From contig QCLE01000010.1 of the NCBI GenBank assembly GCA_003214815.1, positions 1-64,000 of the forward strand: 64,000 nucleotides of DNA, read 5' to 3'. A program made the translations under genes and the position numbers. The stretch's first letter is position 1; each line of letters begins with the position of its first letter. This DNA comes from Prochlorococcus sp. AG-412-J13 (GTDB lineage: Bacteria; Cyanobacteriota; Cyanobacteriia; PCC-6307; Cyanobiaceae). Below the pieces are notes generated by a model. It was not told the DNA's origin, searched no databases, and worked only from the letters and a program-made list of their open reading frames with translations. This document shows, piece by piece, positions 11,772 to 13,283 of the stretch.

Positions 11772-11780
11772 TGCTAGAAT
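11772..11780 (+). promoter_or_regulatory. extended -10 promoter candidate for rpsB
   Basis: TGCTAGAAT reads as an extended -10 element (TGn followed by TAGAAT at 11775-11780). It would place transcription start near 11786-11788, about 14 nt before the pseudoknot and about 92 nt before the rpsB ATG. No clear -35 is visible. The position fits a leader transcript that contains all four strands of the pseudoknot. This is pattern matching only. Confidence 0.4.
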
Positions 11781-11800
11781 GTTTGAAATAAAAACTCACA

Positions 11801-11866
11801 CATCTGACAGTTTCGGGTGATTTATTATTAATATAATTCCCCGTCAGATGGAGGCTAACCCGAAAC
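11801..11866 (+). ncRNA. rpsB leader pseudoknot, candidate S2 autoregulatory element
   Basis: Two perfect complementary pairs are interleaved. CATCTGAC (11801-11808) pairs with GTCAGATG (11843-11850), 8 bp. GTTTCGGGT (11810-11818) pairs with ACCCGAAAC (11858-11866), 9 bp. The order a-b-a'-b' makes an H-type pseudoknot. The 24-nt linker between b and a' can form a weak 5-bp AT hairpin (11824-11837). A GGAGG at 11850-11854 sits at the a'/b' junction, 24 nt before the ATG, and no Shine-Dalgarno lies closer. In Escherichia coli the rpsB-tsf leader is repressed by S2. The same role is inferred here from position and structure. Confidence 0.72.
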
Positions 11867-11878
11867 CCTTCTTAAATT

Positions 11879-12583
11879 ATGGCTGTTGTATCACTATCTG
11901 AAATGATGGAAGCTGGTGCTCATTTTGGGCATCAAACTAGACGTTGGAATCCTAAGATGTCTAAGTACATATATTGCGCTAGAAATGGAGTTCATATTAT
12001 TGATCTTGTGAAAACAGCATTGTGTATGAACAATGCTTATAAATGGACAAGAAACGCAGCAAAAAGTGGTAAACGTTTCCTATTCGTCGGTACAAAAAAA
12101 CAAGCATCAGATGTAGTAGCTCAGGAAGCTACTAGATGCGGAGCTGCATATGTAAATCAAAGATGGCTTGGAGGGATGTTGACTAATTGGACAACAATGA
12201 AAGCTAGGATTGAAAGATTAAAAGATCTTGAAAGAATGGAAAGTAGTGGTTCAATAGCAATGAGACCTAAAAAAGAAGCTGCAGTTTTAAGGAGAGAACT
12301 TGAAAGATTACAAAAATATTTAGGCGGACTTAAGGGCATGAGAAGATTACCCGACATAGTTGTTTTGGTAGATCAGAGAAGAGAATCTAATGCAGTACTA
12401 GAAGCTAGAAAATTAGATATCTCCCTCGTATCAATGTTGGATACAAATTGCGATCCTGATTTGTGTGAAGTTCCAATTCCATGTAACGATGATGCTGTTA
12501 GATCTGTGCAACTTATTTTAGGAAGACTTGCAGATGCCATAAATGAAGGCAGAAAGGGGGCAAATGCGGAAAGAAAAAATTAA
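11879..12583 (+). CDS. rpsB: 30S ribosomal protein S2
   Basis: A 234-residue S2. Family blocks include [76 protein letters not shown] and [20 protein letters not shown]2 binds late in 30S assembly near bS1 and bridges head and body. The sequence is full length and the start at 11879 is fixed by the conserved [13 protein letters not shown]. It is cotranscribed with tsf, 43 nt downstream, in the classical rpsB-tsf order. Expression is likely controlled through the upstream pseudoknot. Confidence 0.97.
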
Positions 12584-12626: not shown

Positions 12627-13283
12627 ATGGGAAACATTACAGCAAAACTTGTAAAAGATCTTAGAGACAAGACTGGCGCAGGTATGATGGATTGTAAAAA
12701 AGCACTTAACGAAACTGACGGAAATGTTGATAAAGCTTTGGAATGGTTAAGAAAAAAAGGTATAGCTAGTGCTGAAAAGAAATCAGGAAGAGTTGCTGCT
12801 GAAGGGGCAATTGGTAGTTATATTCATACTGGATCAAGAGTGGGGGTTATACTAGAGTTAAATTGTGAAACTGATTTCGTTGCTAGAGGTGATATATTCC
12901 AATCACTGTTGAAGGATCTCTCAATGCAGGTAGCAGCCTGCCCAAATGTTGAGTATGTCTCAATTGATGAAATACCTGAAGATATTGTGGAAAAAGAAAA
13001 GCAGATTGAAATGGGTAGAGATGATTTATCAGGCAAACCAGAACAAATTAAAGAAAAAATAGTTGAAGGGAGAATAGCGAAAAGACTTAATGAGTTAGTT
13101 TTGCTTTCTCAACCTTATATTAAAGATAGTTCTCTAACTGTTGAGGATTTGGTTAAACAAGCAGCTGCAAAAATTGGAGAAAATATCAAAGTGAGACGAT
13201 TTACAAGATATACATTAGGTGAAGGGATTGAAAAAAATCAGATGGACTTCGCTGAAGAGGTTGCATCAATGCAATCAAACTAG
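12627..13283 (+). CDS. tsf: translation elongation factor Ts
   Basis: A 218-residue EF-Ts, the nucleotide exchange factor for EF-Tu. The N-terminal UBA-like domain ([20 protein letters not shown], then [22 protein letters not shown]) is followed by the core with [25 protein letters not shown]. The C-terminal motif is [12 protein letters not shown]. It is the shorter, single-core form common in cyanobacteria and chloroplast relatives. It lies 43 nt downstream of rpsB. An unrecognised 357-residue gene and recG follow within 14 and 22 nt, so all four may be one transcript. Confidence 0.96.

Follow-up and report, generated by a model that had tools for sequence, protein, structure and literature searches.

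The element upstream of rpsB in the window, the 64,000-nucleotide stretch of DNA that was analyzed, is very probably the 5' leader of an rpsB-tsf operon, a marine cyanobacterial form of the rpsB (S2) motif that S2 would bind to exert feedback on rpsB. Judged by its sequence, the leader is real and strongly conserved, and it belongs to a known kind of feedback leader, not to a new kind of RNA. Its fold is conserved, one of its helices (P1) covaries strongly, it is homologous to the E. coli leader, it lies at rpsB, and a conserved promoter element precedes it. Feedback by S2 is the most likely role because the leader matches that of E. coli in register, carries a pseudoknot, and has the promoter element upstream of P1; S2 binding and translational repression in Prochlorococcus are what we infer from E. 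coli. An abundant group of marine phototrophs would thereby be linked to a feedback circuit apparently homologous with the one in E. coli.

The window stems from a high-light Prochlorococcus, the group of MIT 9302 and similarly titled loci. Its rpsB protein was 97–99% identical to the proteins of 80 listed cyanobacterial loci, 78 of which are titled Prochlorococcus and 2 uncultured Synechococcaceae. The gene was named rpsB from recognition of its sequence and from the match of its leader to annotated features of the E. coli rpsB leader. The following gene, recognized from its ORF sequence alone, we take to be tsf.

Two perfect complementary pairs in the leader, an 8-bp helix (P1) and a 9-bp pseudoknot helix (PK), are interleaved (Table 1), and no standard pair can be added at either helix end. 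The initial annotation had read them as a pseudoknot ending 12 nt before the ATG, with a GGAGG at the helix junction. All of this checks: 12 nt lie between 11866 and the start codon (ATG at 11879), and the GGAGG occupies 11850-11854, 24 nt from the ATG, its first G being the last base of P1. A third, weak helix that the annotation had left unmentioned, P3, lies within the 24-nt loop separating the PK 5' strand from the P1 3' strand. The linker from P1 to PK is 1 nt in the window, which leaves no room for a P2. Since this 1-nt linker is set against a 9-bp PK, all 8 and 9 pairs may not form simultaneously in a classical H-type fold.

Table 1. Features of the rpsB leader region, in positions of the window.
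Feature	Positions	Strand	Basis
Extended -10 promoter element, TGCTAGAAT	11772..11780	+	TGnTAnnnT conservation
CACA (CRCA) box, conserved, directly 5' of P1	11797..11800	+	Alignments A1 and A2; also in E. coli leader
P1 5' strand, CATCTGAC	11801..11808	+	Exact pairing with 11843-11850; covariation
PK 5' strand, GTTTCGGGT	11810..11818	+	Exact pairing with 11858-11866
P3 hairpin, loop between PK 5' and P1 3' strands	11819..11839	+	5/6 pairs in window
P1 3' strand	11843..11850	+	Exact pairing with 11801-11808; covariation
Linker GAGGCTA, GGAGG together with G11850; motif element, probably not a Shine-Dalgarno site	11851..11857	+	Conservation
PK 3' strand, ACCCGAAAC	11858..11866	+	Exact pairing with 11810-11818
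rpsB, ribosomal protein S2 (regulated gene and presumed regulator)	11879..12583	+	ORF; protein identity 97–99%
tsf, elongation factor Ts; presumed to be second in the operon	12627..13283	+	ORF

Conservation was assessed in 220 cyanobacterial loci, comprising 99 from high-light Prochlorococcus, 61 from other Cyanobiaceae, and 60 from other members of the class; seven relatives outside the class Cyanobacteriia were read in addition. The 220 loci are not independent genomes, as some genomes are present twice via two collections. A script called both P1 and PK in 218 of them (98, 60, and 60 in the three groups, corresponding to 84, 60, and 59 distinct leaders, respectively). The two misses were L063, which runs into a contig end, and L168, in which both helices form but a single pair is G-U. 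P1 and PK pairing thus precedes rpsB in 219 of 219 complete Cyanobacteriia leaders, and the pseudoknot reading is supported. Because the script requires some known motif letters, it describes rather than tests the motif; pair counts and a covariance model serve as the tests.

Pair counts were taken from two alignments, A1 with 63 rows (11 of the 84 distinct high-light leaders and 52 leaders of other Cyanobiaceae) and A2 with 50 rows from non-Cyanobiaceae cyanobacteria. Aligning the two groups jointly (A3, 70 rows) left their PK 3' strands one column out of register, and A3 was used for no count. In A1 and A2, 98.3 and 94.5% of cells paired, respectively, and sliding the partner gave at most 49 and 58%. 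Shuffles rarely or never attained the observed values, and both controls are weak for related sequences. Double changes occurred at 4 of 8 P1 pairs in A1 and at all 8 in A2. For PK, they were found at none of the 9 pairs in A1, where 7 pairs were invariant, and in A2 at 3 of 7. The compensatory changes that had been proposed as a check on both helices were therefore present in P1, but for PK they appeared in deep lineages only and not within Cyanobiaceae. As PK hardly varies within Cyanobiaceae, covariation does not probe it there, and in this family the predicted pseudoknot rests on conservation and homology, not on covariation.

The deep-lineage PK changes amount to few events. The core pair changed from C-G to U-A in L234 and L237, two leaders of one genus, while E. 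coli pairs GGGGU with ACCCC (core pair G-C), and the RF01815 consensus has CCGGU and ACCGG, again complementary. PK was less variable in Cyanobiaceae than in other cyanobacteria (A1 vs A2), with a length of 9 bp in 156 and 10 bp in 2 Cyanobiaceae leaders as against 5–10 bp in the 60 others. Of 51 distinct Prochlorococcus loops, 50 formed five or more of the six P3 pairs, compared with 11% of shuffled loops, and the third P3 pair alternated between A-U and U-A among the Prochlorococcus loops. In A2, 88% of P3 was paired.

The covariance model R1 was built from A2 only and holds no Cyanobiaceae rows. It found the window leader (11793-11882) with 52.3 bits and an E-value of 2.3e-13, the runner-up in the 64 kb scoring 10.7 bits. 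Across the phylum, R1 matched 107 of 244 genomes, once each, and all 107 matches lay at rpsB, within -8 to +12 nt. Of these genomes, 47 contributed rows to R1, so that their matches follow from its construction; the other 60 did not, with 18 in Cyanobiaceae and 42 elsewhere in the class. None of the 107 lay outside Cyanobacteriia in this search, whose filters lose weak matches. Inside the class, R1 missed seven genomes (by kinship order G198, G053, G094, G023, G080, G108, and G015), and G053, G080, G108, and G015 have P1 and PK pairing when their leaders are read directly. In G198, a 99% complete genome of the window's genus, rpsB itself went unmatched, perhaps because it falls between contigs or in masked sequence.

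R1 also aligned to the E. coli rpsB leader with 19.8 bits (E 5.5e-5 in 1.9 kb and 0.011 in 373 kb), placing P1, GGAGG, and AACCC in register. The E. coli leader, RF00127 (t44) in Rfam and annotated as tff in MG1655, shares the CACA box, P1, the GUGGAGG element, and the AACCC of the PK 3' strand. It differs by longer internal stems, by its GGGGU/ACCCC PK, and by a separate AGAGG before the ATG.

Of the seven relatives outside the class, six had no R1 match, and only L244 (from G232) matched, with 28.3 bits and CACA, P1, GGAGG, and AAACC at 113-206. Its PK would be only about 3 bp long, as the portion of PMC2704228 used here says of Firmicutes. The script had called P1 and PK in L246 and L249 of the same set, but with linkers of 10–11 nt and no R1 match these calls were put down to chance. 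Pattern scans of viral contigs yielded at least 120 stretches plus 43 stretches, from which 80 and 43 loci were scored with R1. The best phage-borne candidates among the loci scored, L304 and L322 (27.0 and 22.3 bits, respectively), have P1 truncated or broken and lie inside ORFs that by eye are unlike rpsB. Their scores are biased because the loci were preselected by pattern, and they were judged to be chance matches.

Among 4227 Rfam families run on a 161-nt region, the best two were the two rpsB-leader families, t44 and rpsB. The window reached 28.3 of the 44 bits needed for the RF00127 (t44) cut-off (E 1.8e-4 in 161 nt and 0.0062 in 5.5 kb), in the same register as the E. coli leader. For RF01815 (rpsB), which we take to be the motif of Meyer and colleagues, it reached 16.2 of 40 bits, with an E-value of 0.23 that is not significant alone. 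RF01815 stayed below its cut-off in all of 292 genomes, in a search whose filters lose weak matches; its 21 sub-threshold matches were placed at rpsB (14), elsewhere (5), or could not be placed (2). RF00127 gave no match at E 0.1 in 145 genomes of the class, with the same loss of weak matches by the filters. Thus, two Rfam models fall short on the cyanobacterial form of the rpsB leader.

The initial annotation had recognized no named RNA family in this form. This did not hold, as the two best Rfam matches are rpsB-leader families, and the motif, its pseudoknot, and its occurrence in Cyanobacteria were published in 2009 (PMC2704228). The reading as a new RNA class was rejected on the Rfam search together with PMC2704228 and PMC2662882. 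In the parts of Meyer et al. (2009; PMC2704228) used here, the rpsB motif consists of P1, P2, P3, and a pseudoknot, its carriers include Cyanobacteria, in which P2 is very short or absent, and S2 control of rpsB in E. coli is cited. The window leader likewise adjoins rpsB and has a covarying P1, a variable P3, no P2, and a pseudoknot from the junction to the 3' extension. In contrast to the five pairs predicted for most groups in those parts of PMC2704228, its PK has 9 bp, and Cyanobiaceae leaders lack a Shine-Dalgarno (SD) sequence. Voss et al. (2009; PMC2662882) list cluster 394 as a cyanobacterial rps2 leader candidate. It, too, is a cyanobacterial rps2 5' UTR predicted to be structured, although its table row seems to count two members, and no pseudoknot or S2 mechanism is given in the parts of that paper used here. 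In the literature searched, neither the SD-less picocyanobacterial form with its longer, 9-bp PK nor the failure of the Rfam cut-offs on it was found described.

In the favored reading, transcription would start about 14 nt before P1, and the nascent RNA would form P1, the variable hairpin P3, and a pseudoknot that connects the junction of P1 and P3 with the bases immediately 3' of P1. The CRCA and GAGGCNA elements, both conserved, would stay unpaired next to P1. S2 in excess of free 30S subunits would bind this fold, probably with S1, and the bound fold would block 30S loading on rpsB, lowering S2 and, via the shared mRNA, Ts too. In Cyanobiaceae, the bound or locked fold would sit under the 30S footprint because PK ends 6–15 nt before the ATG and an SD is missing. 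Repression by S2 with S1 in E. coli is described in a 2024 review (PMC10931766), which in the part used here calls the details unclear. Other cyanobacteria carry one and the same presumed operator with an SD, and Prochlorococcus and its relatives carry it without, a natural experiment that could help settle how S2 represses.

An SD core between the PK core and the ATG occurred in all 60 non-Cyanobiaceae leaders (AGGAG in 35, AAGG in 19, and GGAG in 6) and in none of the 158 Cyanobiaceae leaders scored. The absence of an SD closer to the ATG, noted from the window alone, accordingly extends from the window leader to the whole family sample. One tentative and rather unlikely reading of this pattern is that in picocyanobacteria the lengthened 9-bp PK replaced the SD as the landing element for 30S and S1 while also being the S2 operator, with S2 switching it from recruiting to blocking. 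Also unlikely is a structured translation enhancer, in which the pseudoknot attracts S1 and 30S to an SD-less mRNA and feedback by S2 has become secondary in Cyanobiaceae or has been lost there. The missing SD and the longer, less variable PK of that family would suit such an enhancer, and pseudoknots can be high-affinity S1 targets according to the part of PMC10931766 used here. The retention of features common to the S2-controlled E. coli leader argues against it.

The initial annotation had also offered GGAGG as an SD site. That it is a distant or switched SD, exposed or hidden by the pseudoknot, is improbable, even though it fits an SD core and Cyanobiaceae have no other between PK and the ATG. 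GGAGG lies 24 nt from the ATG, and all 98 high-light leaders carry it at the end of P1, as do 57 of 60 from other Cyanobiaceae and 50 of 60 from other cyanobacteria. These 50 carry GGAGG in the same place together with a separate SD, as E. coli does. Since it is kept across all groups and in E. coli, GGAGG appears to belong to the motif and is probably not an SD. An SD-less start is, moreover, ordinary near the window: an SD-like core preceded 5 of 52 long ORFs, with 2.0 expected by shuffling, in a rough count that assumes the first ATG of each ORF as its start. In tobacco chloroplast rps2 mRNA, an SD-like sequence is reportedly a negative element (by the title of a 2003 paper), which might be a relic of the cyanobacterial leader.

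The extended -10 that had been noted just upstream of the helices is present and belongs to a promoter element conserved upstream of P1. Of 200 distinct leaders, 196 had TGnTAnnnT in the 58 nt ahead of P1 (86 of 86 high-light, 58 of 58 other Cyanobiaceae, and 52 of 56 other cyanobacteria), where shuffling predicts 3–5 per group. Its spacing to P1 mostly spread over 1–3 nt per group, and 74 of the 86 high-light leaders had one spacing. Because the position of the element is conserved, transcription is predicted to start before P1, likely near 11787 and about 14 nt ahead of the helix. The names rpsB and rps2 do not occur in the main texts of the papers on marine or Prochlorococcus RNAs that were searched for a start site, and none for rpsB was found in the part of a Synechococcus elongatus transcriptome paper used here. 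The literature searched likewise gave no S2-binding, probing, or start-site result for any cyanobacterial rpsB leader. Between the -10 and P1, near the expected start, a AGTTGTCTAAA-like stretch was seen in many of the non-Cyanobiaceae leaders viewed (14 leaders, also L213) and was not seen in the Prochlorococcus ones.

With perfect inverted repeats so close to a promoter, a function at the DNA level, or in attenuating or terminating transcription, is conceivable yet very improbable. The promoter element precedes the repeats with little change in spacing, and GAGGCTA rather than a T run comes after P1. The pairing of P1 also survives two-sided changes, although such changes cannot separate RNA pairing from a DNA palindrome.

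The overall folding energy of the leader was unremarkable, with a z-score of -0.75 that is uninformative because the nested model cannot form a pseudoknot. Nested folding preferred P1 over PK, with pair probabilities of 0.98 and 0.015, respectively, in a calculation that cannot form both. Bare interleaving of exact helices (at least 8 and at least 9 bp, within 80 nt) occurred in 9 pairs in the window and in 501 pairs in 200 simulated windows, so that it is common in AT-rich DNA. When at least 4 G/C were required in both helices, the rpsB leader element alone remained in the window, as against 3 pairs, 1 of them with short linkers, in 250 simulated 64-kb windows. Conservation is a stronger argument for the leader than this simulation. 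Chance repeats in AT-rich DNA have practically no probability, common as bare interleaving is at such composition, because the arrangement is rare under the G+C requirement and its conservation across the class refutes chance.
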